Source: a virus
DNA: 54,421 bases
Reading direction: 5' to 3' (one strand)
IMG/VR virus record: IMGVR_UViG_3300045922_000842
Location: 1-54,421 of that record
Shown: positions 15,752 to 43,543 of the stretch, in pieces
Layout: each line of letters starts with the position of its first letter
Numbering within the stretch: position 1 is the stretch's first letter
Notes under the pieces: model-generated
Seen by the model: the letters and a program-made list of their open reading frames with translations, nothing else
Told to the model about the DNA's origin: nothing
Databases searched by the model: none
Translations under genes and position numbers: made by a program

Positions 15752-17278
15752 TTAAAGCTTTTTAGTAGTAAATTTATTATTTATAAAATTTAACAGCTGT
15801 CTAGACCCATTTTCATGGATTAAGCAGTGCGTATTCATCCAAGATGATGGTCCACTACCATAGTCAGGGGATGTGGGGGTTGATGTACCCACACACCAAG
15901 CATCCCGCATAATTTCTGGTGTATGCATGTGTCCATACACTACTTTGCGATAAGCATTTTCCATTGAATTAATACCACCCTTAGATCCATTGGCACCCTT
16001 GTCCCCATGAGCACCTAGTTGTATTCCTTGAAAAGAATAATCCTCATCTCGACTTAGCCAGCGAATATTTTTTGGTTGTCGCGATCGGTTGAAATAATAC
16101 TCTAGTGGGTTATTTCCATTGATATAAGCAAGGGCTAATTCTAATGCAAGTTTATGGTTTTGGGGGTCATTAACATATCTACCCTCGTTTAAGTATCGCT
16201 CTAGGTGCTCATCGTGGTTAGATTTAACAATAACTACTTGACGGCTGTTAGAAAGCCAGATTAAGTCTCTAACATAGATGTCTAATTCAGCCTCTAAATT
16301 AAGTTTATTTTTAACCTGTTTTTTAGCCAATGTAATATTTTTACCAATATCATGGTGACTACAACTCGTTGCTGAAAAAGCATCGTGAAGTACAAAAGTA
16401 CTAATCCCTAGCTTTTTTCCTAAATTGTCAGTGTGTCTTGCTACATTGTAGTCCGTTTCACCCGCGTGCCAATCACCCAGGACTAAAACGCTAGGACTAC
16501 TTTTACTAACACCTTTTGGAGTGATTTTTTGATTTAAATCATAAAACACACCTTTTGGGTCACTTTGAATCTGCCTAAAATGAAAATGGCCGTCAGACTC
16601 AATTTCAACAATCAAAGCTCCTAAAGTATGGTCATGGTCAGCTAAATAGCTCGTTTTATCTACAAAACTTTTTTTAGCTAGGTAATTCTTTTTAGTCACG
16701 GCTCCAGTGCTCATAAGAGCATGTGGTAGCGCTGAGGGACCAGTAGCAACATACTTAAGTCTTTGTTTTGGCGAGGGGCAAATAATTGAACCATTTCGAC
16801 GCCCAATCCTAGGTAAACCGGTAATTGGATCTACCTGCTTAGCTCCGTTTCTAATACTAAGAATTGACAGATTATTATTAATGTCTGCGTCAGAATCAAT
16901 AATAGTTAATCCCCTAAGTGCAGGATCAAGTTCTAACTCTGAGTTTTGAAACGACACTAAAACAAGTAGTTGAGCATTATTTTTCTTACAGTATTTCTTA
17001 AGAGACTTAAGGAAGTCTTGGTTTACCTCTGCACCAGTAACCGCAGTTGTAATAATAAATCTATTTTTAGTTTGGTCAATCTGACTATTAAACTTTTCAA
17101 GATTTAAATCAAAAATATCATTCTTAATGTATGGATAGGCTTTTTCTTTTAATCCAGTAAGATTTTCTGAAAAAGTTCTAACCTCGGCTCTAGTAATTCC
17201 CAGAGTATTTAACTCTGCCATTTTTGGATAACGCTTGTGTTTTTTAACAAAACTAACAAAGGTTTTTAGTACGGACAT
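15752..17278 (-). CDS. metallophosphoesterase, phage T5 A1-like DNA transfer protein
   Basis: This 508-residue protein has a C-terminal calcineurin-type phosphoesterase core: 'GDWHAGETD' (268-276), 'LHDAFS...SHHD' (297-310), 'SNHDEHLERY' (353-362), 'GAHGDKG' (422-428) and 'GHMHTPE' (449-455). The first 200 residues are helical with 'VTGAEVNQDFLKSLKKY'. This order resembles the A1 protein of phage T5, needed there for second-step DNA transfer and host DNA breakdown. The family call is from memory of the motifs. The start overlaps the polymerase stop (TAATG type), so it belongs to the replication operon. Confidence 0.65.
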   Translation of the reverse strand: MSVLKTFVSFVKKHKRYPKMAELNTLGITRAEVRTFSENLTGLKEKAYPYIKNDIFDLNLEKFNSQIDQTKNRFIITTAVTGAEVNQDFLKSLKKYCKKNNAQLLVLVSFQNSELELDPALRGLTIIDSDADINNNLSILSIRNGAKQVDPITGLPRIGRRNGSIICPSPKQRLKYVATGPSALPHALMSTGAVTKKNYLAKKSFVDKTSYLADHDHTLGALIVEIESDGHFHFRQIQSDPKGVFYDLNQKITPKGVSKSSPSVLVLGDWHAGETDYNVARHTDNLGKKLGISTFVLHDAFSATSCSHHDIGKNITLAKKQVKNKLNLEAELDIYVRDLIWLSNSRQVVIVKSNHDEHLERYLNEGRYVNDPQNHKLALELALAYINGNNPLEYYFNRSRQPKNIRWLSRDEDYSFQGIQLGAHGDKGANGSKGGINSMENAYRKVVYGHMHTPEIMRDAWCVGTSTPTSPDYGSGPSSWMNTHCLIHENGSRQLLNFINNKFTTKKL

Positions 17279-20200
17279 TACTTACACTCCCCATAGCTAC
17301 GACCTACAATTGGTTCTGATTTTAATTTAATTGGATCTAAATTTACAGCAGTTTCCATCGCAAGTTTTGTAAGCTCTACCGCTTTATCAACTTGATCTTC
17401 CCGCACTTCAATGATTTGCTCATCGTGAATAGTCATAACAATATAACCATCAATCCCGTTTTCTTTAAATAAACGAGCTGTTTTAAGCATAGCCCTATTC
17501 ATTGCATGACCAGCAGTACCTTGAACTTGAAAGTTTACAGAATTGTTTAGCAAATTTTTATAAACCCTTCTTTGTTCTACAAGATTATGTTTCTTGGCCC
17601 ACCTTGAGTCAAGAAGTTTGTCTCCATACATTTTATACATATTTTTAAGTTCTTGCAAGTGTCTTGTTCTACCAAAGATAGTTTTAACAAATCCTTGCGT
17701 TTTTGCTAAATAGTGAGTCTTTTCAATAAAGTTCTTAATTCCTGGAAACGCAGAAAAATAACCTTGAATAAGTTCATCAGCTTTTTCTGGAGTGTCGTTA
17801 ATTACTTGTGATATTCGATACTTGTCGGCTCCGTAGAACACAGCCAGACAGTTATGTACTCTTATGTTATTAGCATAAAATTCATGTACAGACTCGACAG
17901 TTATGTCATAGACATCTTCGGTGCTACCTGGAGTTATTCTTAATACTCTACAGGTATCTTTTGATTTAAATATTTTAGGTGGAGTTGCGAGTTCTATAGC
18001 TTCTTTTTTCCTTGGGCACTGCAAAAATTCTGAAAGCCCCAATTGTTTAAGTAAAAATATACCTGATCTAGTCAATGAGATTGTATAATAATCTTTATTA
18101 TAAGTTTTATTATACTGTATTTGGAGCCTTGCGTCAACTCCTAAATCCGACAATAATTTACAGATATCAGAAGCAAAGTCTAAAGATTTTGTACAAACAG
18201 CAACGTCAGAATATTTTTTTGTTTTATTGTGCTTTAAATAGCCATCTGTATCAAAAAGTCCTGCTAAAAAAGCTAACCTAACTCTAAGATTACTATTAAA
18301 AACAAAAGGTTGTATTCTGAGATTTTTATGACCGCGCCCCTCATTACCAATACAAAATGCGTTTAGAGTTTTTTGAAATAAATTTGTCAGTTCAGTAGAA
18401 GAAATAAGAAATGTTTTAAAGCTTTGTTTTTGTTTACCGGGCGGTATCTCACGAGACCTATATCCAAAGCTTTCAAAAAAATCAACCCATTTATTTACAA
18501 CATTGTCTTCTGATAAACCACAAATACCCACATAGGCAGAAATTAAATGACTATTAATATTTCGTTTAGCCCGCTCTTTTCTATTAGTCCAAGAACCAAC
18601 GCCATCTCCCAGAAAAGCTCCTAATATCCAAGCCCAATCTTCGTTGAATGTTAATTCTAAAAAAGCATTTTTGTTTGGTTTTCCGATACTACTAACGGAA
18701 TAAAATGGTAGTTTTAAATAGTTTTCGGAATAGTTTCTAAAGTCTCGATTACTTTCTAAAATATCATTAATTTTTAATTTAGCAGCTTCTACCCAACAAT
18801 TATCTGTGTTTGACCAAATCTTATGGTCCGGCGTACACTTCAATATTCCTTTATTAGTAATAACTGTTACCGTTTCACTTTTTCTTGTAAAAGTGTTTGT
18901 AACTTTAAAATAACCTTTTTTAGTTTTAATTTGATCGCCGACAACAACTCTACTAATAAATGACATTTTATTTTCTAAATCAACTATAGTATCTTCTGTA
19001 AAGCAATAAGTTTTTGTTAAAGCTCTTTTTTTCTTATCAACTTTACCTAAGTAGTTTGGTTGATTTGAGTCCGCAGAAACGCCGCTTAATTTAAACTGTT
19101 TAATTGCAATGGCTGAGTAGAAATCTACATCGTCAATAAAAATTTGTTGGAGTCCTTTGTCCCCCGACACATAAGAAGCGACTCGCGGCTCTAAAGACGA
19201 AAAGTCTGATCCGATTAGTTTATACCCGTTTCTTGAGACAATACCGTTTCTTACTCCGTTAACAAATTCATCCATTGGTGTACCTGTTTTTTGCGGAGCT
19301 GGACAGTTTTGAAGATTAGGATTTCTAGAAGCAAATCTACCAGAAGTAGTTCCAAATTGCAGAAAAGAAGCTCTTAGTATTCCATCAGAGTTGATACGTT
19401 CTAAAATACCGTCATAATAGGTACTTTTCATTTTTTGGACAGTATTTAAATCTCGCAATTTTTCTATCCAAGGATAACGGTCCTTAATAGAGTCTAAAAA
19501 AGTATCATCAACTTGGGGAGCACCTTTATCAGTAGTAGATAGTGGCTCTTCGTTATAGCGACTAAAAAACAACCACTTTAAATGCTGTTTACTGTTTACA
19601 TTAAATATTGCAGTTTCTTCAGGATATTTTGTAAAATACATTTGCCTTTGAATAACTCTAGTTAAATTAGGATTTAATTCGATGTCAGAAGTTAGCCAAG
19701 TTTTAAACTGAGTTTGCTCGGGACTTTGAGGATTGATGCTTTGTATTGCTTTTTTAGATAGTGAATCTATTTCTAGTCCCACTACTTTTGCGTACATTTT
19801 AGGAAAATTACCAGTTTTTTTAACTGGAAACTCTTTCTCCAAAAGTTCGTCCTCAAATGCTTTAATATCACCAGAAATAGAATCCAGTACTTCTTTTTCT
19901 GTTTTCTTAATAAACTCAGTTCCTTTTTCTGAAAGTGTTTTATAAAGCTCAGTGTCAATTTGAACCCCCCGCTTCTTCATTGGAATTGTTACTTCTCTAT
20001 ACAGGGGCATTATTTCGTCTTCATAGAAAAGCTTATGAGTTCCTTCAATTTCAAGGGTTTGAGAGAATTTATTAAAGAGCTTATAGGTAAGCATTACATC
20101 GTAGGCACAGTATTCGCCTAAGACCTCCGTATCGGCCTTATACATCTCCAGATTGGTTTTAGTAATGCTCCCGCCATTGGTTTTTATGTTTTCGTATAAG

Positions 20201-20658
20201 CGTTCCTGGGCCTTATCTGCCCAAGCCCCAAGATACTTAACGGCAGTCTCTTTAAGTCCAAAAGGCTGCTCTTCGTCTACAACGTGCTTCATTAGGATTG
20301 TGTCTGCATAAATCGAATTGGTATGATCTATGCCAGTAGAAAAATACCAAACTAAAATATCGTACACAAGGTTGTGTCCAATAATTTTTTTAGATCCGAG
20401 TAGGTTGTTTATTAAAACATAAATACGCTCAGTAGTTTGAGGATCAAAATATAACTCCCCTAATTTATTCCTAATTGGAATATAAAACCCTTCGTCCTCT
20501 TCAAACGCTAAACCTATCCCATAAATATTAGCTGTTTCTTCGTTTACCGAGTCAGTTTCTAAGTCAAAAGAAACTATAGAAATATTACCAAACTCTGAGT
20601 TTACAAAGTCTATAAACTCAGTTAGAGTTAGTTTATCTAGAAACAAAACATGCTTCAT
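17278..20658 (-). CDS. DNA polymerase family A (3'-5' exo + pol) interrupted by an intein
   Basis: The precursor is 1126 residues; without the intein (Cys552-Asn936) the enzyme is 741. The exonuclease domain has 'DLETD' (32-36), 'GHNLVYD' (94-100) and 'YCAYDVMLTYKL' (183-194). Polymerase motif A is 'GSDFSSLEPRV' (483-493), motif C is 'IHDEQ' (1077-1081) and 'TTSGRFASRNPNLQN' is at 437-451. Motif B is R-A-L-T-K-T-Y then C-L-A-V-F-Y-G, split by the intein. The residue aligning with E. coli Pol I Phe762 is Leu. This is the replicative polymerase, next to the primase-helicase. Unspliced protein should be inactive. Confidence 0.95.
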   Translation of the reverse strand: MKHVLFLDKLTLTEFIDFVNSEFGNISIVSFDLETDSVNEETANIYGIGLAFEEDEGFYIPIRNKLGELYFDPQTTERIYVLINNLLGSKKIIGHNLVYDILVWYFSTGIDHTNSIYADTILMKHVVDEEQPFGLKETAVKYLGAWADKAQERLYENIKTNGGSITKTNLEMYKADTEVLGEYCAYDVMLTYKLFNKFSQTLEIEGTHKLFYEDEIMPLYREVTIPMKKRGVQIDTELYKTLSEKGTEFIKKTEKEVLDSISGDIKAFEDELLEKEFPVKKTGNFPKMYAKVVGLEIDSLSKKAIQSINPQSPEQTQFKTWLTSDIELNPNLTRVIQRQMYFTKYPEETAIFNVNSKQHLKWLFFSRYNEEPLSTTDKGAPQVDDTFLDSIKDRYPWIEKLRDLNTVQKMKSTYYDGILERINSDGILRASFLQFGTTSGRFASRNPNLQNCPAPQKTGTPMDEFVNGVRNGIVSRNGYKLIGSDFSSLEPRVASYVSGDKGLQQIFIDDVDFYSAIAIKQFKLSGVSADSNQPNYLGKVDKKKRALTKTYCFTEDTIVDLENKMSFISRVVVGDQIKTKKGYFKVTNTFTRKSETVTVITNKGILKCTPDHKIWSNTDNCWVEAAKLKINDILESNRDFRNYSENYLKLPFYSVSSIGKPNKNAFLELTFNEDWAWILGAFLGDGVGSWTNRKERAKRNINSHLISAYVGICGLSEDNVVNKWVDFFESFGYRSREIPPGKQKQSFKTFLISSTELTNLFQKTLNAFCIGNEGRGHKNLRIQPFVFNSNLRVRLAFLAGLFDTDGYLKHNKTKKYSDVAVCTKSLDFASDICKLLSDLGVDARLQIQYNKTYNKDYYTISLTRSGIFLLKQLGLSEFLQCPRKKEAIELATPPKIFKSKDTCRVLRITPGSTEDVYDITVESVHEFYANNIRVHNCLAVFYGADKYRISQVINDTPEKADELIQGYFSAFPGIKNFIEKTHYLAKTQGFVKTIFGRTRHLQELKNMYKMYGDKLLDSRWAKKHNLVEQRRVYKNLLNNSVNFQVQGTAGHAMNRAMLKTARLFKENGIDGYIVMTIHDEQIIEVREDQVDKAVELTKLAMETAVNLDPIKLKSEPIVGRSYGECK
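17851..19005 (-). other. intein with LAGLIDADG homing endonuclease in DNA polymerase
   Basis: This is a 385-residue insert. Splicing block A starts at Cys552 ('CFTEDTIVDLE'). Block B is 'CTPDHKIW', with Thr609 and His612. Two dodecapeptide motifs, 'LGAFLGDG' (Asp685) and 'LAGLFDTDG' (Asp805), mark an apparently intact LAGLIDADG endonuclease. The C-terminal block ends 'FYANNIRVHN', with His935-Asn936 and +1 Cys937. All class 1 splicing residues are present. The insertion point lies in polymerase motif B, immediately before the residue equivalent to E. coli Pol I 761. Confidence 0.95.
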
Positions 20659-26708: not shown

Positions 26709-26924
26709 TTAAGGCTGATCTCCTTCTTCCCAACCATTAACTTCGGTGCAGGATGCAACATAAAAATCTTCAGACCTACCGAAAATATACTCTTTAGTAT
26801 ATGTTGGCGGGAGCATACCCAGGCTTTCAAAAACCTCTAATTCGTTTTCTACCTGGTCGTTAGTAGTAAATACAGTATTGTTTGGACTATCCAATACCAT
26901 ATTTATAAAATCACTCTTTTTCAT
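26709..26924 (-). CDS. small 'MKKS...GMLPP' family protein
   Basis: This 71-residue acidic protein starts MKKSDFINMVLD and carries 'ESLGMLPPTYTKEYIFGRSEDF', ending with 'NGWEEGDQP'. It is a paralogue of 29241-29480 and 29598-29858, which share MKRSE...GMLPP...WEPEDE. Function unknown. Its stop abuts the UDG-like start. Confidence 0.6.
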   Translation of the reverse strand: MKKSDFINMVLDSPNNTVFTTNDQVENELEVFESLGMLPPTYTKEYIFGRSEDFYVASCTEVNGWEEGDQP

Positions 26925-27235: not shown

Positions 27236-28297
27236 TTACTCACAAACTTTCTTTGTCTTAATCATATCAGATGGTTCGATATATCGCAAGGTAGAATTTC
27301 CTGGAGTAGACCACTTTAGCTCTGCTGCAATCTGTGTTCTTGGTCCTTGGAACCACTGTACTTCCATTTCATATAGCCCTTTAAGTAAATTAGCACTACC
27401 CACTTTTGTTCTTGGTGCGTGTAGACCGTCGTCTTCTAAAACTGGGAATCCATTAAGAATAACTCGCATACCATCATCAGAGGTAATAGAAAAGTTATGT
27501 GTTCCACTACTAGCAACATTTAACTTAGTAAAACATCTAACGGCATAGTTTTCTCGTAAGTGTGCTAGGCTTGCAGGAAACTTAGGAAAACCTTGATCCC
27601 AGCTTCTAGGAGTCACATCAAAACGGTTCATGTAAAAACTACCTAAGTGTGGTGCTCCATCTAGCTGTGTAGCTAAACTGCTCCGCCCGGTAAAATCGTA
27701 AGCGTGGCAAAGCATGTTAAGAGTGGGGTGCGGATCATTACATTGTCTAGGCTCAAGAGTATTATCTTGCTCAGCTAAATAAAAGTAATCCTGCCAACCA
27801 AGTAGCAGCAAATTAAAGCTATAGTCTAAAGTTTGGTTAACTTCAGAGCTAGTAGTATTTGTACTATTCCCACTACCAGTAACCCCAGACTCAGAGGAGT
27901 TGGTGTTGCTGTTATTTGCCTGGTTAGAGGCAGACCCGCTATTGGTAGAGCTATTTGTACTGTTAGACGAGCTAGAGTTGTTTGCTGTGCTGTTACCAGC
28001 AGAGCTAGACCCTCCATTGCCTCCATTACCAGACCCACCAGTTGCAGAGTTGTTACCGGACGTAATGTCGTTAGTATTCGAGCTAGATCCACCACTACCA
28101 CCAGTTGCAGTGTTCGACCCACCATTTACTGTGTTCGTACTACCTTCTACTACAACGGTAACATTAATGGGCTGCCCCACTGGCTGTGTTGTAACAATTG
28201 GATCTTTTTCTTTTTGTTCCGGTAATTTTTCAACCTGGATAAATTCACCGCACCCAGATAAGCTTACTGCTGCTAAAATAATTAATAATGCTTTCAT
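27236..28297 (-). CDS. lipoprotein with Ser/Gly/Asn linker and PA14-like domain
   Basis: The ATG at 28297 (AGGAGA upstream) gives 353 residues. A lipoprotein signal ends in 'LSGC' with Cys16 as the lipid site and no Asp at +2, so outer-membrane sorting is expected. Residues about 50-150 are almost pure S/G/N/T linker. The C-terminal region carries 'SGTHNFSITSDDGMRVILNGFPVLEDDG' and 'LLKGLYEMEVQWFQGPRTQIAAELKW', typical of PA14 carbohydrate-binding beta-barrels. It follows the secreted protein at 28314-28769 by 16 nt. A surface display or superinfection-exclusion role is inference. Confidence 0.7.
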   Translation of the reverse strand: MKALLIILAAVSLSGCGEFIQVEKLPEQKEKDPIVTTQPVGQPINVTVVVEGSTNTVNGGSNTATGGSGGSSSNTNDITSGNNSATGGSGNGGNGGSSSAGNSTANNSSSSNSTNSSTNSGSASNQANNSNTNSSESGVTGSGNSTNTTSSEVNQTLDYSFNLLLLGWQDYFYLAEQDNTLEPRQCNDPHPTLNMLCHAYDFTGRSSLATQLDGAPHLGSFYMNRFDVTPRSWDQGFPKFPASLAHLRENYAVRCFTKLNVASSGTHNFSITSDDGMRVILNGFPVLEDDGLHAPRTKVGSANLLKGLYEMEVQWFQGPRTQIAAELKWSTPGNSTLRYIEPSDMIKTKKVCE

Positions 28298-28313
28298 ATA
28301 TTCTCCTTTAAAG

Positions 28314-28769
28314 TTAAAAATCAAAACTAACAGAACCACTAATTGTACCATTACTTTGCACTTGTACGCCAACAGATAAATCAGAATCTAGCATTCTTTG
28401 GTACTGCAATCCATAAACAATACCCCGCTCAAGTCTAGCTTCAGATCCCGCAATAGATAGTTTAGTAGGGCCAGAGCCAACCAAGCCACTAATTCTATTT
28501 TTCTTGTTTTCTTTTTTAATAACTGTTTGTGTAACTTTTACAGGCACACGCTCTACTACTCGAACTGGAATGCGCTGTTCAACAACTCGCACCACTTCTT
28601 TTTCTACAATAACTGGAACAGGCTTTTCTACAACCTTAGTTCTAGTTATAACTCTGGGCCTTGGTTGCTTACAAACAACCTCTTTTTTCTGCTCACACTC
28701 TTTCGGACAACACTCAGCAAAAGCTGGGTAATACCCTAACAACACAAATACAACTAGTAATTTTTTCAT
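28314..28769 (-). CDS. secreted V/P/K-rich protein with C-terminal beta strands
   Basis: The 151-residue protein has a clear Sec signal (KKLLVVFVLLGYYPAFA, cleaved about residue 18). A Cys cluster follows ('ECCPKECEQKKEVVCK'), then a Val/Pro/Arg/Lys repeat ('VVEKPVPVIVEKEVVRVVEQ') likely to be extended, then a beta-rich C-terminus ending 'SGSVSFDF'. The C-terminal third is related to the protein at 13541-13930. It may span the periplasm and contact the outer membrane. GAGGAGG precedes ATG. Confidence 0.65.
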   Translation of the reverse strand: MKKLLVVFVLLGYYPAFAECCPKECEQKKEVVCKQPRPRVITRTKVVEKPVPVIVEKEVVRVVEQRIPVRVVERVPVKVTQTVIKKENKKNRISGLVGSGPTKLSIAGSEARLERGIVYGLQYQRMLDSDLSVGVQVQSNGTISGSVSFDF

Positions 28770-28853: not shown

Positions 28854-29113
28854 AGGTGTGACAGGCTGGGCGCTACTCCAGCAATGTGCTTACTGAGGTT
28901 CAACCTAAGCACGGCCTTAACCATCAGGTTCGGAAGGCGATTACCCTCTTATTCGGCACCGAATATTGTCTTCATCTGCGCGTTCCAGCCCTCAAAGCTC
29001 CGTTGTCGACCGACCTGTTTCGTTGTTTTAGCTTGCGCCTGCACATTTAAGTGCTAACCGATAAGGTGGAGTCTTGGTTTCCCGTCAAAGGTCAGCTTCC
29101 GCGCCTCTGTCAC
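28854..29113 (-). ncRNA. structured non-coding RNA, about 260 nt, family unknown
   Basis: The ends pair: GUGACAG with CUGUCAC (7 bp), then GGCGC with GCGCC. Inside, on the - strand, are GCUGACC/GGUUAGC; GCAC/GUGC around UUAAAU; AAGCU/AGCUU; AUUCG/CGAAU; GCCUU-CCG-AACC/GGUU-AAGGC; and GUGCUUA/UAAGCAC. It is visibly more GC-rich than its surroundings, no convincing gene covers it, and a near-consensus promoter sits exactly upstream of the 5' end. It contains a GTG-start 30-codon frame (29044 to about 28951) that may be incidental. I do not recognise it as tmRNA, RNase P, 6S or a group I intron. Confidence 0.75.
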
Positions 29114-29120
29114 ATTTATT

Positions 29121-29149
29121 AGAATACTATGTTAATTACTTAAAGTCAA
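29121..29149 (-). promoter_or_regulatory. sigma70-type promoter of the structured RNA
   Basis: -35 TTGACT (29144-29149), a 17-nt spacer and -10 TATTCT (29121-29126). The predicted first base, 8 nt downstream, is the G of the GUGACAG outer stem. The spacer contains AATTAACATA, part of the element seen before late genes. Confidence 0.75.
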
Positions 29150-29240: not shown

Positions 29241-29480
29241 TTATTTTGTTTCATCTTCCGGTTCCCACTCGTTAAATTCAGCATAAGAATTTTCAGCCCT
29301 ATCCCAGATAGATTTGTCGGTATAGGCCGGGGGCAGCATACCTACCTCTTCGACCTCGTCTAGAAGCGCCCAGACTAGGTAATCGTCGTTTGGGTAAAGT
29401 TCTTCGCCTGTATCAGGATCATTACCTTTGATCTGGTTTAAACGTGTTTTGAGGCGCTCAATCATTTCACTTCGTTTCAT
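29241..29480 (-). CDS. small 'MKRSE...GMLPP...WEPEDE' family protein
   Basis: The 79-residue acidic protein starts MKRSEMIERLKTRLNQIKG, has 'VEEVGMLPPAYTDKSIWDRAE' in the middle and ends 'FNEWEPEDETK'. It is the clearest member of a family with paralogues at 26709-26924 and 29598-29858; two more proteins share only the N-terminus. Probably an early host-takeover or regulatory protein; no biochemical hint. ATGA overlap with the small gene upstream. Confidence 0.65.
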   Translation of the reverse strand: MKRSEMIERLKTRLNQIKGNDPDTGEELYPNDDYLVWALLDEVEEVGMLPPAYTDKSIWDRAENSYAEFNEWEPEDETK

Positions 29481-29597: not shown

Positions 29598-29858
29598 CTA
29601 CCATCCACGTTTTTTTGCTGCATTCCAGTAGGAATCCTCAACATTTTCTTCATCTTCCGGCTCCCATTTATTGATTGACCTAATAACATTTGCTCCAATA
29701 GGTAAGGTAGGAACAGTCGGAGGCAGCATACCCACTTCTTTTTCTAAAGTGTGTAGTAAGTTATCTGCCCACTCCTGATAATTTTTAGAGTAAGTATCAT
29801 CTAAAATTTCTGGTTTTGCCCAGTTAGCTAATAACTTAACAACTTCACTTCTTTTCAT
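29598..29858 (-). CDS. small 'MKRSE...GMLPP...WEPEDE' family protein
   Basis: The ATG at 29858 is chosen because GGAGG precedes it. The product is 86 residues, starting MKRSEVVKLLANW, with 'EKEVGMLPPTVPTLPIG' and 'INKWEPEDEEN', followed by an extra tail (SYWNAAKKRGW). A possible -10 box, TATAAT, lies at 29888-29893 without a convincing -35. Paralogue of 29241-29480. Confidence 0.65.
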   Translation of the reverse strand: MKRSEVVKLLANWAKPEILDDTYSKNYQEWADNLLHTLEKEVGMLPPTVPTLPIGANVIRSINKWEPEDEENVEDSYWNAAKKRGW

Positions 29859-29920
29859 AAGATTTAACCTCCAGGTAAAAAAGGGCAATTATAAAACCAA
29901 CAGACGCCGCTCGTACAAAG

Positions 29921-34512: not shown

Positions 34513-35040
34513 TTACCCGCCGGCATAGTATTTTTTACTAGGTCTTTTATATGGGAACTTTTTGTTTGATCGTAACCAGTTGTCCTTAAAATAGCAATAG
34601 TTATTTGGCAAAGCTGCAAATTGCCCATTATCTAACTGAATTAAATTGTGTGTTTTATACTGCTCAGGATCTTCTGCAAGGCCCGATCCCTCATAGTCCA
34701 AAGTTAAAACATAGGAACCAGAAATCCCAAGTTTAGTGTCTAAATTAGCGTCTTTAAGAAGTTCATAAGAAACTAAACTCACTGGACCTTCTAGGCAGGT
34801 AAAAGGCTGTAATTCCTCGTTCGTTAAGGGAGTGCCCTTTATTTCAGGTCTAGATGTAATAGCCTCAATTGGTAACCCAGAAAAAATGGCACCATGCTCG
34901 GTATATACTGTAAACTGTAACGCTTTATTAGCAACGGCCTTAACGGCAACAAAATAGGCGGCAACGAAGTCATCCTTAACCCCGTCGGCACTTAAGTATT
35001 CACTTCTAATAAAAATTTTTTTCGCTGGTAAGTTTATCAC
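34513..35040 (-). CDS. hypothetical protein downstream of NrdA
   Basis: 175 residues; the GTG start shares a base with the NrdA stop. Beta-rich, with 'LQFTVYTEHGAIFSGLPIEAI', 'VLTLDYEGSGLAEDP' and a basic Tyr-rich tail (KYYAGG). The last gene of the nucleotide-metabolism operon before a promoter gap. No family recognised. Confidence 0.5.
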   Translation of the reverse strand: MINLPAKKIFIRSEYLSADGVKDDFVAAYFVAVKAVANKALQFTVYTEHGAIFSGLPIEAITSRPEIKGTPLTNEELQPFTCLEGPVSLVSYELLKDANLDTKLGISGSYVLTLDYEGSGLAEDPEQYKTHNLIQLDNGQFAALPNNYCYFKDNWLRSNKKFPYKRPSKKYYAGG

Positions 35041-37115
35041 TATCCCTCACATGCCACACACTCATCTGCTCCTCTGGACGCTAAATCGGCTCGAATCGGA
35101 GAAGAGCTTCTTAAATAATATAAAGACTTAAGTTCTTCTTTCCAAGCTTCTAAGTGCACACTGTTAATATACTTCGGATCGGAGTTTGATGCAAAGAATA
35201 AATTAATAGATTGTCCCTGGTCAATAAATTTTTGTCTTTGACCAGCTTGTTTAATAATAGCAAATTGGTTTATTTCTCTAGCGGTAAGAAATACTTGTTG
35301 TACTTCTTCTGGAATTTCTTTAATGCCGAATACACTACCTTCTTGTTTAATAATCTTATTCCACACTTCATCGGTATTTAATTTAAGCTCTTCTAGTGCT
35401 GCTCTTAAAATAGGATTATATTGAATAAAAGTTCCTTTAGCAGACTTTTTCACATAAACATTAGCTGCTAGGGGCTCAATGCCCGCTGACACATTGCCAG
35501 AAATAGTAGAGTTTGATACTGTAGGGGCTATCGCGAGTCTGTGGGTATTTCTAAGTCCCGTACCTAACATCCACTCAGGTTCACCTAATAACTGGGCTAA
35601 CTCTTTAGAAGCCTCTAGAGATTCTTTATCCAGTTTAGAGAATATTTCAGCATTTAACATCATGCTATGAAAAGAGTCAAATGGTAGTTTTTTAGATTGT
35701 AATAAACTGTGCCAACCTAAAACTCCTAAGCCCAAAGCCCTAGACTTAGTAGCGAAGTTACAAGCTCTTTCCAAACCTGGAATAGTTTTAGCTTTTTTAA
35801 TAAACTCTTCCATTACACCGTCTAGAAAGTATATAGCAATTTTAACTAAGTCAGTATTTTTCCACTCGTCGTATTTAGTTAGATTCAAAGAAGACAAACA
35901 ACAAACCAAAGAATGGTCTTTGTCTGTGTTCAAAAAGATTTCTGAGCAGTTTCCAGTCATAATACCGTTAGCTAGAGCAAACTGTGAACTAGACTCTACT
36001 GTTGTACAAAAAGCTGGTCCTGTTAACAAAGATTTTTTAACTCCAGTAACGGTGGCCACATGTTCGCCGACCATAACACTAATTAAAGAATATTCTTTTA
36101 ATTCTGTAGTGGGAACTAATCCAACCCCAATAACAGGCCACCTGTGGTTAGGAGTACAAACTACTATATCTTGATTATTAAATTCAACTTCATAAAATTC
36201 AGAGTAAGCTTGTGTCATTCTAAATGAGTTATTTTTAACCCAATTATATCCGTCAAAAATAGTAACTTCTAGACCAACTAAATCTTTGATAAATACTCCA
36301 CCAAATTCTTTAGTTAGTACTTTAGTTAGGGGATGTAAACAAAGATTTGAACCTTTGACTTCATACCAAGGTAAGTGTTTAGGATTGCCTTTCTGGGCAT
36401 GATCTGTAAAAAATAAATATGGCTCTCCTGTTTCAAACCTTGATTTCAATACTTCTGACCACAACTCTCTTTTTTTAGTATCCCCGGAAATTAAATCATT
36501 CATCCAGGAGTTTGAGATGTTAATTCCATGATGAACATTTGGACACCATCGGTTAGGGTCTCCTTCTGGCCTTCTAACTTTTAAAAACTCTTTAATGTCT
36601 TTATGTTCTATTGGTAAGTAGGATGCAAGTGCTCCCCGCCTAGTTCCTCCCTGATTTGTTGATGCAATCATAGAGTCAAATACTTTAAGCCAAGAAACTA
36701 CTCCGCTAGAATTTCCACCTTTAGATATCTTGTTTCCAGCGGGCCTAACATCTTTTAGATGGATAGATGTTCCGCCGCCGTATTTAGACATTAAAGCCGT
36801 TTCTTTAACAGTATCAAAAATATCACCTAAATTATCGGGGACATAAGACGAGAAACAACTAATTGGTAAAGCTCGTTCCGTTCCCATATTTGCGGCTACT
36901 GGAGTAGCTGGGCACAACCAACCTTTCCACATATAATCAAAAAACTTACTTTCAATTTCTTTTGGGTAATTTGCCGCAGCTGCTTTAGCTACTCTCTTGT
37001 ACATGTCGATAGGATTTTCATTCTCCAATAAATATCCATTTTTTAGAGTTGAGTACCCCTCTTCTGTTAAGAACTCTGGGGCTAAACCTAAATCTTTTAA
37101 AGTTTGTAAATTCAT
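35040..37115 (-). CDS. nrdA: ribonucleotide reductase class I alpha subunit, with mini-intein
   Basis: The ATG at 37115 (GGGAG upstream, TAATG with nrdB) gives a 691-residue precursor and a 560-residue spliced enzyme without an N-terminal ATP-cone. It reduces NDPs to dNDPs with NrdB. Cys at 'ALPISCFSSYV' and at 'VCCLSSLNL' form the active-site redox pair. The thiyl-radical Cys lies in N-L-C-S-E, and the C-terminal 'CVACEG' is the shuttle pair. The intein lies between N-L and C-S-E. Confidence 0.93.
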   Translation of the reverse strand: MNLQTLKDLGLAPEFLTEEGYSTLKNGYLLENENPIDMYKRVAKAAAANYPKEIESKFFDYMWKGWLCPATPVAANMGTERALPISCFSSYVPDNLGDIFDTVKETALMSKYGGGTSIHLKDVRPAGNKISKGGNSSGVVSWLKVFDSMIASTNQGGTRRGALASYLPIEHKDIKEFLKVRRPEGDPNRWCPNVHHGINISNSWMNDLISGDTKKRELWSEVLKSRFETGEPYLFFTDHAQKGNPKHLPWYEVKGSNLCLHPLTKVLTKEFGGVFIKDLVGLEVTIFDGYNWVKNNSFRMTQAYSEFYEVEFNNQDIVVCTPNHRWPVIGVGLVPTTELKEYSLISVMVGEHVATVTGVKKSLLTGPAFCTTVESSSQFALANGIMTGNCSEIFLNTDKDHSLVCCLSSLNLTKYDEWKNTDLVKIAIYFLDGVMEEFIKKAKTIPGLERACNFATKSRALGLGVLGWHSLLQSKKLPFDSFHSMMLNAEIFSKLDKESLEASKELAQLLGEPEWMLGTGLRNTHRLAIAPTVSNSTISGNVSAGIEPLAANVYVKKSAKGTFIQYNPILRAALEELKLNTDEVWNKIIKQEGSVFGIKEIPEEVQQVFLTAREINQFAIIKQAGQRQKFIDQGQSINLFFASNSDPKYINSVHLEAWKEELKSLYYLRSSSPIRADLASRGADECVACEG
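35949..36341 (-). other. mini-intein (no endonuclease) in NrdA
   Basis: A 131-residue insert, Cys259 to Asn389 of the precursor, with +1 Cys390. Block A is 'CLHPLTKVLT'; block B is 'CTPNHRW' with Thr321 and His324. The end 'FALANGIMTGN' has Gly, not His, before the terminal Asn. There is no room for a homing endonuclease. The +1 cysteine aligns with the catalytic thiyl-radical cysteine (E. coli Cys439 in NLCxE). Confidence 0.9.
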
Positions 37116-38083
37116 TAGTTCTCCCAAATTTTTGAAAAGTCTACAGAACCTCTAGAGTATGCACTTGGCTGCATGGCAAAAAAATCAGCGTGTTCAACTC
37201 CTGCTGACAGAGGTTCAAACCAAGAAGTTACTCTATTAACTGAATCAGAATCTATGTTTTTCCAATTACTTTTTAGTCCAAGGTCTTTTAACTTGGTGTT
37301 AGCTCGGTGCCGTATAAATTGCTTTAAATCTTTAGAATCTAGTCCTTCTACGTGACCAGCACTAAAACTAAAGGCTTGGTCTATAAAATCGTCTTCAATT
37401 TTAACTACAATCCTAGCTGCTTCATATAAAGGTTTTTTAAATTCATCTGTCCAAATGTCAGGAAACTCTTCTTTAACCTGATTAAACAATCTACAACCAA
37501 ACTCGGAGTGTAAACTTTCATCCCGAATACTCCAAGAAATAATTTGTCCAACGCCCTTTAATTTATTAAATCTACTAAAATTAAGTAAAATAGCAAATGA
37601 GCTAAATAAAGAAACGCCCTCACCAAAACCACTAAAAACTGCTAAAGACCTTGCTATATCTTCAATGTTTTTTGTTTTAACTAATACCCAGTTGTCTACT
37701 TTGGCTTTAGATACTGGGTCTGTTAAAAATTCTGAAAAATTGTTAATTCCCAAAGTATCGTTTAAATGAGCGTAAGCCCGTTGATGGATGGATTCAAAAG
37801 CACTCATAATAGCCGCAGCTTGGGCAATCTCTGGATGGGGGAACCAATTAGCAACATTTCTCCAATAGTCACCAATTAAAATTTCTACTTGAGTAAATGA
37901 TTTTAAAATGCTACTGATTAAATATTTTTCGGAGTCTGTCAAAACCATTTGCCAATCCATTATATCAGATTGCATGTTTACTTCTTCTGGTAACCAAAAT
38001 GATCTTAGCGAGTTTTGGCTGTACTGATCTGCAAATTGATAAATAAAAGGTTTATAGGTCTGTCGCCTATGAGTAATTTTCAT
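37115..38083 (-). CDS. nrdB: ribonucleotide reductase class I beta subunit
   Basis: The 322-residue ferritin-like radical-generating subunit. Metal ligands include Asp43 ('IMDW'), Glu97 and His100 ('FESIHQRAY'), and Glu/His in 'RDESLHSEFG'. The tyrosyl-radical position is Tyr104, matching E. coli Tyr122. It hands the radical to NrdA, whose gene starts one base into this stop (TAATG). Length is slightly short but complete. Confidence 0.93.
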   Translation of the reverse strand: MKITHRRQTYKPFIYQFADQYSQNSLRSFWLPEEVNMQSDIMDWQMVLTDSEKYLISSILKSFTQVEILIGDYWRNVANWFPHPEIAQAAAIMSAFESIHQRAYAHLNDTLGINNFSEFLTDPVSKAKVDNWVLVKTKNIEDIARSLAVFSGFGEGVSLFSSFAILLNFSRFNKLKGVGQIISWSIRDESLHSEFGCRLFNQVKEEFPDIWTDEFKKPLYEAARIVVKIEDDFIDQAFSFSAGHVEGLDSKDLKQFIRHRANTKLKDLGLKSNWKNIDSDSVNRVTSWFEPLSAGVEHADFFAMQPSAYSRGSVDFSKIWEN

Positions 38084-42358: not shown

Positions 42359-42693
42359 GCGTATCTCCTTTTAATTGACTCTTCTAAAAGCTTCACTACT
42401 TCAGTATGTCCATAATAACTAGCCCAGTACAAAGCACTCTGACTAATTCGATCAACTCCTCTGTCTAGCAGTAGCTTTACTATTTCAATATGTCCTTTAA
42501 CACTAGCTTTCCACAAAGCCTCCTGACTACTAGGATCAGCTCCTCTATCTAGCAATAATTTCGCTATTTTAACATGTCCATTGGTACTAGCAGAACCCAA
42601 AGCATCCTGGCTATTAGGATCAGCCCCTTGATCTAGTAACAGCCTTACTACCTCAACATGCCCGTATCGTGCTGCTGTTTGTAATTGGTTCAT
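42355..42693 (-). CDS. ankyrin-like repeat protein, copy 3
   Basis: 112 residues, starting 'MNQLQTAARYGHVEVVRLLLDQGADPNSQ', with three further 28-residue repeats (D-P-x-x-Q-x-A-L-x-x-A-S-x-x-G-H-x-x-x-x-K-L-L-L-D-R-G). The usual ankyrin TPLH is replaced by DAL or EAL. A capping 'LLEESIKRRYA' ends it. Likely a protein-binding scaffold; partner unknown. ATGA overlap with copy 2. Confidence 0.8.
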   Translation of the reverse strand: MNQLQTAARYGHVEVVRLLLDQGADPNSQDALGSASTNGHVKIAKLLLDRGADPSSQEALWKASVKGHIEIVKLLLDRGVDRISQSALYWASYYGHTEVVKLLEESIKRRYA

Positions 42694-43118
42694 ACTGCCT
42701 CCTTTTGTTTTGTAATTGCATCTTCTAAAAGCTTTACTACCTCAACACGCTCATACTTATTAGCAATATGCAAAGCATCCTGGCTATTAGGATCAGCCCC
42801 TCGATCAAGTAAGAGCTTTACTACTTCACCATGTCCATTAAGACTAGCAAAGTAAAGAGCATCCTGACTATTAGGATCAGCTCCTCTGTCCAGTAGTAGC
42901 CTTACTACCTCAACATGCCCATTAGCACTTGCCCAGTACAAAGCATACTGACTACTAGGATCAGCTCCTCTATCTAGTAATAGCTTAACTACCTCAACCT
43001 GTCCCTTAAAACTAGCCACGTACAAAGCATCCCGACTATTAGGATCAGCTCCTCTGTCCAGTAATAGCTTTACTACTTCAGTGTGTCCGTATCGTGCTGC
43101 TGTTTTTAATTGGTTCAT
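42690..43118 (-). CDS. ankyrin-like repeat protein, copy 2
   Basis: 142 residues, N-cap 'MNQLKTAARYGHTEVVKLLLDRG' and about four 28-residue ankyrin-like repeats, C-cap 'VVKLLEDAITKQKEAV'. Same architecture as its two neighbours, and probably produced by tandem duplication. Coupled by ATGA overlap on both sides. Confidence 0.8.
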   Translation of the reverse strand: MNQLKTAARYGHTEVVKLLLDRGADPNSRDALYVASFKGQVEVVKLLLDRGADPSSQYALYWASANGHVEVVRLLLDRGADPNSQDALYFASLNGHGEVVKLLLDRGADPNSQDALHIANKYERVEVVKLLEDAITKQKEAV

Positions 43119-43543
43119 ACTGCCTCTTTTTGTTTTTTAATTGACTCTTCTAAAAGCTTCACTACCTCAACATGTCCACAATAATTAGCCCAGTACAAAG
43201 CACGCTGATTATTAGGATCAGCTCCTCTATCAAGTAATAACCTTACTACTTCAGTGTGACCATGCCTACTAGCCCAGTACAAAGCACGCTGATTATTCGG
43301 ATCAACTCCTCTGTCCAGTAGTAGCTTTACTATTTTAATATGTCCATCAAAACTAGCCAAGAACAAAGCATCCTGACTATTAGGATCAGCCCCTCTGTCC
43401 AGTAATAGCTTTACTACTTCAGTGTGACCATGCCTACTAGCCCAGTACAAAGCACGCTGATTATTCGGATCAACTCCTCTGTCCAGTAGTAGCTTTACTA
43501 TTTCAGTGTGACCGTACTGTGCTGCTGTTGTTAATTGGTTCAT
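43115..43543 (-). CDS. ankyrin-like repeat protein, copy 1
   Basis: 142 residues, N-cap 'MNQLTTAAQYGHTEIVKLLLDRG', four 28-residue repeats with consensus 'DPNNQRALYWASRHGHTEVV', C-cap 'VVKLLEESIKKQKEAV'. Two of its repeats are identical over 93 nt, indicating very recent duplication or gene conversion. Directly downstream of the PcfJ-like gene. Confidence 0.8.
   Translation of the reverse strand: MNQLTTAAQYGHTEIVKLLLDRGVDPNNQRALYWASRHGHTEVVKLLLDRGADPNSQDALFLASFDGHIKIVKLLLDRGVDPNNQRALYWASRHGHTEVVRLLLDRGADPNNQRALYWANYCGHVEVVKLLEESIKKQKEAV
43243..43503. repeat. 93-bp perfect direct repeat (43243-43335 and 43411-43503)
   Basis: The two copies are identical and offset by 168 nt, exactly two 28-codon ankyrin-like units. 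They begin ttactacttcagtgtgac and end gtagctttactattt. The perfect identity extends over synonymous sites. Confidence 0.9.

Follow-up and report, generated by a model that had tools for sequence, protein, structure and literature searches.

The window analysed here, the whole 54,421-nt stretch of IMG/VR virus record IMGVR_UViG_3300045922_000842, is a 54-kb phage genome fragment. On its minus strand (28857-29114) it contains a noncoding RNA of 258 nt which, together with other elements, appears to form a family of phage RNAs that Rfam lacks and that is apparently undescribed. We consider it very probable that this family is real and that the window copy is one of its members, divergent and with an expanded second helix (P2). 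An earlier note on this DNA, made from its letters alone, had proposed an unrecognised structured phage RNA of about 260 nt at this place. The proposal stands: no Rfam family matches the element, and its helices P1, P2 and P4 covary in homologues.

A phage RNA family with a conserved frame

At least 169 elements were collected from IMG/VR contigs, four cultured phages and some bacterial genomes. They share a frame in which P1 (8-25 bp) pairs the two ends of the RNA, P2 carries the loop GAAAGC.GA, and P4, with the loop RGUAGCGN, is stacked directly on P1 throughout the family. The elements were reached by pattern searches; a blastn search of phages with the window RNA had returned chance matches only. 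A pattern for the 3' hairpin and closing strand, GGAGTAGCGCCCNNNCNGNCAC, identified three IMG/VR contigs with GCCGG-AGUAGCGC-CCGGC followed by CCGUCAC or CCGCCAC; these contigs also had the matching 5' strand, GUGACGG or GUGGCGG, and then a GGAA.GC motif. Follow-up searches led to four cultured phages of Pseudomonas and Ochrobactrum (PotUPM1, POI1126, Persinger and Orimi01), which share GGCGUGGAAAGC.GACACGC after the first P1 strand. This 20-mer pattern was present in at least 120 IMG/VR contigs and in 36 contigs of the much larger GTDB set, where the carriers (metagenome-assembled genomes or genomes) belong to Proteobacteria, Acidobacteria, Planctomycetes, Brocadia and Bacteroidetes. The P2 motif had no copy in 5,426 E. 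coli genomes, and plasmid matches were short and mainly within coding genes. The family is phage-borne, as the counts in IMG/VR and GTDB show; a phage record usually holds one copy, sometimes two or three. Under strict filters, about 1% of genomes carry one in each of two sampled groups, the genus of the Pseudomonas of element L154 and the phylum of the Thalassospira of element L147.

The structure of the frame is supported by covariation. From motif sites 145 elements were extracted; in the extraction control, 125 of 154 real sites reached a score of at least 12, against none when the downstream sequence was shuffled. Among 38 diverse members chosen through P2, changes on both sides of a pair occurred at 7 of the 8 pairs of P1 and 4 of the 5 pairs of P4. 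Double-change cells in P1 and P4 together numbered 131, against 33 in shuffled controls and no more than 20 in slid ones; as this set was also filtered on stem quality, which inflates paired cells, the controls and the abutting geometry of the two helices are the stronger points. P2 covaried at 4 of its 5 pairs in a second set, chosen mostly by P4, with the variants GCGUG/CACGC, GCACG/CGUGC, GAAUU/AAUUC and GCGGG/CCCGC. Absence of covariation in homologues was among the refuting conditions named in the earlier note, and all three helices proved to lie far above the shuffled and slid controls. In P1 and P4, G.U pairs outnumbered A.C mismatches by 31 to 5, a count mildly biased by the scoring of G.U as a pair during extraction; this indicates selection on the RNA of the annotated strand, which is therefore the functional one.

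The loops are conserved as well. At positions 5 and 6 the P4 loop has an invariant GC (140/140), and the GC of the P2 loop was kept by nearly all members chosen through P4. A second copy in one phage (L008, 1119-1258, plus strand) combines the P2 loop GAAGGA with the P4 loop UAUCAAGC, and the two loops possibly co-vary. A k-turn reading of P2 was rejected on inspection, the G.A order being unfitting.

The core of the family members had no match in Rfam 15, and neither ARAGORN nor Rfam recognised a transfer RNA (tRNA) or transfer-messenger RNA (tmRNA) in it. Five core sequence strings were absent from 5.39 million open papers, a search that left out subscription papers and most preprints, and topic searches of the open literature found no description of the family.

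The copy in the window

The following features were assigned in and around the window copy, all on the minus strand.

28857-29114: noncoding RNA bounded by P1, 258 nt; sole site in the window from the family-core scanner
29144-29149: -35 hexamer TTGACT; with the -10 hexamer a 9/12 promoter match, chance at the RNA start about 1%
29121-29126: -10 hexamer TATTCT, 7 nt before G29113
29107-29114: P1 5' strand UGUGACAG (acceptor-like), partner 28857-28864, covarying in the family
29100-29104: P2 5' strand GCGCG (D-arm-like); family consensus N-G-GCGUG at identical spacing after P1
29095-29099: P2 loop motif GAAGC (family GAAAGC), by comparison with the family loop
28987-29094: putative insert within P2, of the expanded-P2 subtype seen in elements L176, L177 and L181
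28978-28986: P2 loop 3' part GGAA (28986-28983) and P2 3' strand CGCGC (28982-28978), resembling GGAGA-CACGC of expanded-P2 members
28883-28977: variable domain from P2 to P4, with several hairpins in the constrained fold
28865-28882: P4 (T-arm-like) hairpin GCUGG-AGUAGCGC-CCAGC, 5 bp with an 8-nt loop, abutting P1; 17.9 bits with model R1
28857-28864: P1 3' strand CUGUCACA, pairing with 29107-29114

The closing stem GUGACAG/CUGUCAC of the earlier note is present and actually has 8 bp, with pairing probabilities of 0.54-1.0. Its second closing stem, GGCGC/GCGCC, was not retained, as these letters fall in P2 and in the P4 loop of the family; only 81 of 140 members have C as the P4-loop base that this helix would engage. 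The at least six internal hairpins it had counted became about ten local ones in the constrained fold, and the elevated GC it had noticed was confirmed (0.50-0.52, against 0.31-0.45 in most adjacent 200-nt segments). No gene of note overlaps the RNA on either strand. Neither ARAGORN nor the Rfam models identified a tRNA or tmRNA within the window, and the Rfam check that the earlier note had advised returned no family for the window at gathering thresholds, nor even at E≤10 (GOLLD, ROOL, tRNA, tmRNA and YrlA included). The folding energy of the RNA is not unusual (z score -0.68), so that stability alone is no proof of structure, and the proof comes from the homologues. Imposing the family core on the fold costs 0.6 kcal/mol (-79.4 vs -80.0 kcal/mol for the free minimum).

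Membership was judged with a scanner that looks for P4 with P1 directly adjoining it and, at a set distance, the 5' motif. Its single site in the window is this RNA, and it found none in 10.2 million shuffled strand-bases. The family core calls for a P1 that abuts P4 and pairs the RNA ends over 7 bp or more, and the window has 8; its P4 has 5 bp and the loop AGUAGCGC, of the form RGUAGCGN, and differs at none of its 18 positions from that of 28 IMG/VR contigs. At the 5' side the window reads GGCGCGGAA-GC where the family has GGCGUGGAAAGC. Of the family motif N-GGCGNGGAAAGC following P1 and closing as P2, the 5' strand and the loop motif are there (with a 1-nt deletion), and the 3' strand only as an expanded P2. 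Three other members, L176, L177 and L181, have such an expanded P2, with 5' GAAAGC and, on the 3' side, GGAGA before CACGC. Covariance model R1 gave one match in the window, at P4 alone (17.9 bits, E 0.057), and the window P2 is divergent: because its 3' strand is displaced and its probability in the unconstrained fold is only 0.32, its assignment to the expanded type, made by comparison with these three members, is an inference, and this weighs against membership. A chance resemblance, with only the other elements forming a family, would draw on these points; it is hard to reconcile with an identical P4 directly joined by a P1 of 8 bp and with GGCGNGGAA-GC at precisely the expected distance, nor did the combined pattern arise by shuffling, and we regard it as highly improbable.

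Close relatives of the window copy were not found. Pattern ACGGGAAACCNAGNCTCC gave chance matches, and pattern GGCGCGGAAGCTGACC, for such close relatives, gave 43 chance matches and no family member. Searches through the primase/helicase, the downstream gene and the terminase provided no usable relative of the window phage; the terminase, about 30% identical to that of a Silvanigrella phage, gave the sole match of note.

The RNA is preceded by TTGACT-N17-TATTCT at 29149-29121, ending 7 nt before GUGACAG as the earlier note had it. This plausible sigma-70 promoter is suggestive only, because a score of at least 9 is reached at 1.1% of random minus-strand positions. Promoter-like sites show no excess in the window (39, against 38±4.9 in shuffles), and the site is not the best on the minus strand, as had been claimed, since four others score 10-11/12 against its 9. 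Across the family, the RNA ends have an excess of promoter-like and terminator-like sites, yet these occur in a minority of members.

The variable domain and links to tRNA

The domain between P2 and P4 measured 39-192 nt in the members examined, and the 169 elements fall into 132 sequence clusters; that of the window is unrelated in sequence to every other member compared. Several pairs of members sharing the P1 strand AGCAAGGG have upstream flanks 82-92% identical and P4-P1 ends 96-100% identical, and their interiors are 47-66% identical, against a shuffled baseline of 53%. For L194 and L178, the values are 92% upstream, 100% at the P4-P1 end and 61% in the interior. The interior is thus replaced wholesale among otherwise near-identical phages. 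Elements L177, L178, L181, L187, L192 and L194 have a common P1 and P4, several also a common upstream flank, and unrelated interiors.

Interiors are on average barely more stable than shuffles (mean z score -0.44); in one 15-member subfamily, the interior is conserved, folded and partly covarying. Interiors were not complementary to their own loci beyond the chance level and, in the two hosts searched, had no other match in the host genome. Readings as a simple antisense RNA or as sequence captured from the host are weakened by these results.

Several observations connect the family with tRNA. The order of helices, P1/P2/variable domain/P4/P1, is that of acceptor, D-arm, insert and T-arm in a tRNA. 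A canonical tRNA T-arm lies within 9 of the 169 interiors and in none of the shuffles, and the interior of L110 contains a tRNA above the Rfam threshold. In L176 (86-280, plus strand), a circularly permuted tRNA with a closed acceptor, like that of YrlA, is inserted in P2; the YrlA model scores it at 23.2 of 69 bits, below threshold. At 16 loci tRNA genes lie within 1 kb, all on the strand of the RNA and several at 2-7 nt; L035, L051 and L070 being related, about 14 of these loci are independent. Other neighbouring gene families (terminase, endolysin, HNH, integrase) recur in only a few cases each, and the surroundings of family members showed neither a constant partner gene nor a packaging or retron context.

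Known systems share parts of this design. The tRNA and the tRNA-like domain of tmRNA (RF00005, RF00023) also have an end-joining stem, a D-like arm, an insert and, next to the end stem, a T-like arm of 5 bp. The bacterial Y RNA YrlA (RF02553) has the permuted tRNA module with closed acceptor, as in the P2 insert of L176; however, the module was recognised neither in the window nor in any other member, the core has no YrlA match, and no Rsr family is among the neighbour-gene matches listed. Retron noncoding RNAs have an end-joining inverted repeat, a conserved and a variable part, as does the new family, but no reverse transcriptase family is among the neighbour matches listed. GOLLD and ROOL are noncoding RNAs of phages and prophages, often in tRNA islands, with a conserved and a variable part, the latter sometimes containing a tRNA, as does the linker of GOLLD (PMC12286853). 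The new family resembles them in habitat and in its conserved-plus-variable design, and differs in its small core (about 55 nt plus insert, against 600-800 nt), its tRNA-like P1/P2/P4 layout and the lack of Rfam similarity to either.

Proposed role and surroundings of the RNA

The reading we tentatively prefer, at somewhat less than an even chance for the whole statement with its mechanism, is that of a free-standing phage noncoding RNA gene with a tRNA-like frame, acting as a decoy or mimic in an arms race. Its transcription would start at a promoter of its own or form part of a tRNA operon. Its invariant P2 and P4 loops, for which we hypothesize a D-loop/T-loop-like contact, would meet to form an elbow, and a conserved host factor, probably one acting in tRNA metabolism or translation, might recognise this elbow. 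The frame would display the variable domain, which may evolve under conflict, and most likely the RNA would act as decoy or mimic towards host factors which either attack tRNA or sense infection in some other way. Action in trans is most likely given the lack of a fixed neighbour gene, and the rapid replacement of the domain in near-identical phages indicates an arms-race role. The wider statement, a widespread class of phage RNA with an invariant tRNA-like frame and a hyperdiversified domain swapped wholesale among close relatives, whose trans action would serve counter-defence or immunity specificity, is possible though rather doubtful.

Several points weigh against the decoy or mimic. Only about 10% of members are near tRNAs, and no tRNA lies in the window. 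P1, with its 8-25 bp against 7, is often longer than the acceptor stem of a tRNA, the P4 loop reads RGUAGCGN where a T-loop has UUCRANY, and the family has no conserved 3' CCA. Loop-loop contact is suggested only by the invariant GC of both loops and by the one variant pair of L008. The diversification of interiors could be neutral, and the decoy or arms-race role is conjectural.

Other roles would account for part of the same data. Guide-like RNAs typically combine a constant frame with a variable interior, and the low structure of the interiors would also suit a trans-acting regulatory small RNA whose core is a protein-binding handle and whose variable domain pairs with phage-specific target mRNAs; the complementarity and host-genome results and the folded interior of the 15-member subfamily speak against this, and we find it unlikely. 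Slightly more unlikely is an RNA-only assembly like those of GOLLD and ROOL, where the conserved part builds a particle and the variable linker is cargo: tRNA neighbours and tRNA modules in interiors recur in the new family, but the core is far smaller, and this sequence-only analysis gave no sign of oligomerisation. For a ribozyme or a mobile, self-processing element one can cite the near-invariant loops, the ends joined by P1 and the HNH endonuclease genes adjoining some copies. These neighbours are a small minority, however, and outside P1 no conserved nucleotides mark a cleavage or splice site; such an element is improbable. The earlier note had suggested a mimic, a decoy, a ribozyme or an ornate RNA; of these, the tRNA-like topology and tRNA modules seem to favour a tRNA mimic or decoy over a ribozyme. 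Finally, the RNA ends 87 nt upstream of gene 28769-28314, on the same strand and with no clear terminator in the gap, as a cis-acting leader or riboswitch of that gene would. Across the family, though, the downstream gene is not conserved, downstream open reading frames run in the opposite direction in about 40%, and terminators directly follow some members, such as that of Persinger, which leaves this reading with very little probability.

Elsewhere in the window, on the same strand, the region downstream of the RNA (27236-28372) encodes a secreted-looking Ser/Asn/Gly-rich protein with a PA14 domain. Small proteins at 26709-26924, 29241-29480 and 29598-29888 have a common MLPP / EWEPEDE-like pattern and are probably paralogous; two of them were compared with Pfam and had no match. 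The family A DNA polymerase (17278-20658) is split by an intein that contains a LAGLIDADG homing endonuclease domain. On inspection of its sequence, the large subunit of ribonucleotide reductase (35040-37127) probably contains a small intein (CLHPLTKV...IMTGNC); Pfam reports only the reductase domains. Ankyrin-repeat genes at 42385-43543 are in tandem duplicate, which is unusual for a phage.

A structured RNA, apparently undescribed, is thus present in well over 100 phages of Proteobacteria and some other phyla. Its frame, its tRNA-like layout, the tRNA modules and the replacement of interiors make a conflict between phage RNA and host tRNA biology directly testable, and Persinger, PotUPM1, Orimi01 and POI1126 are cultured carriers. 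The six elements named above with common P1 and P4 constitute a natural series in which to study interior replacement, and the family can be set beside GOLLD and ROOL, the unexplained RNAs of tRNA islands, as a third and much smaller case.
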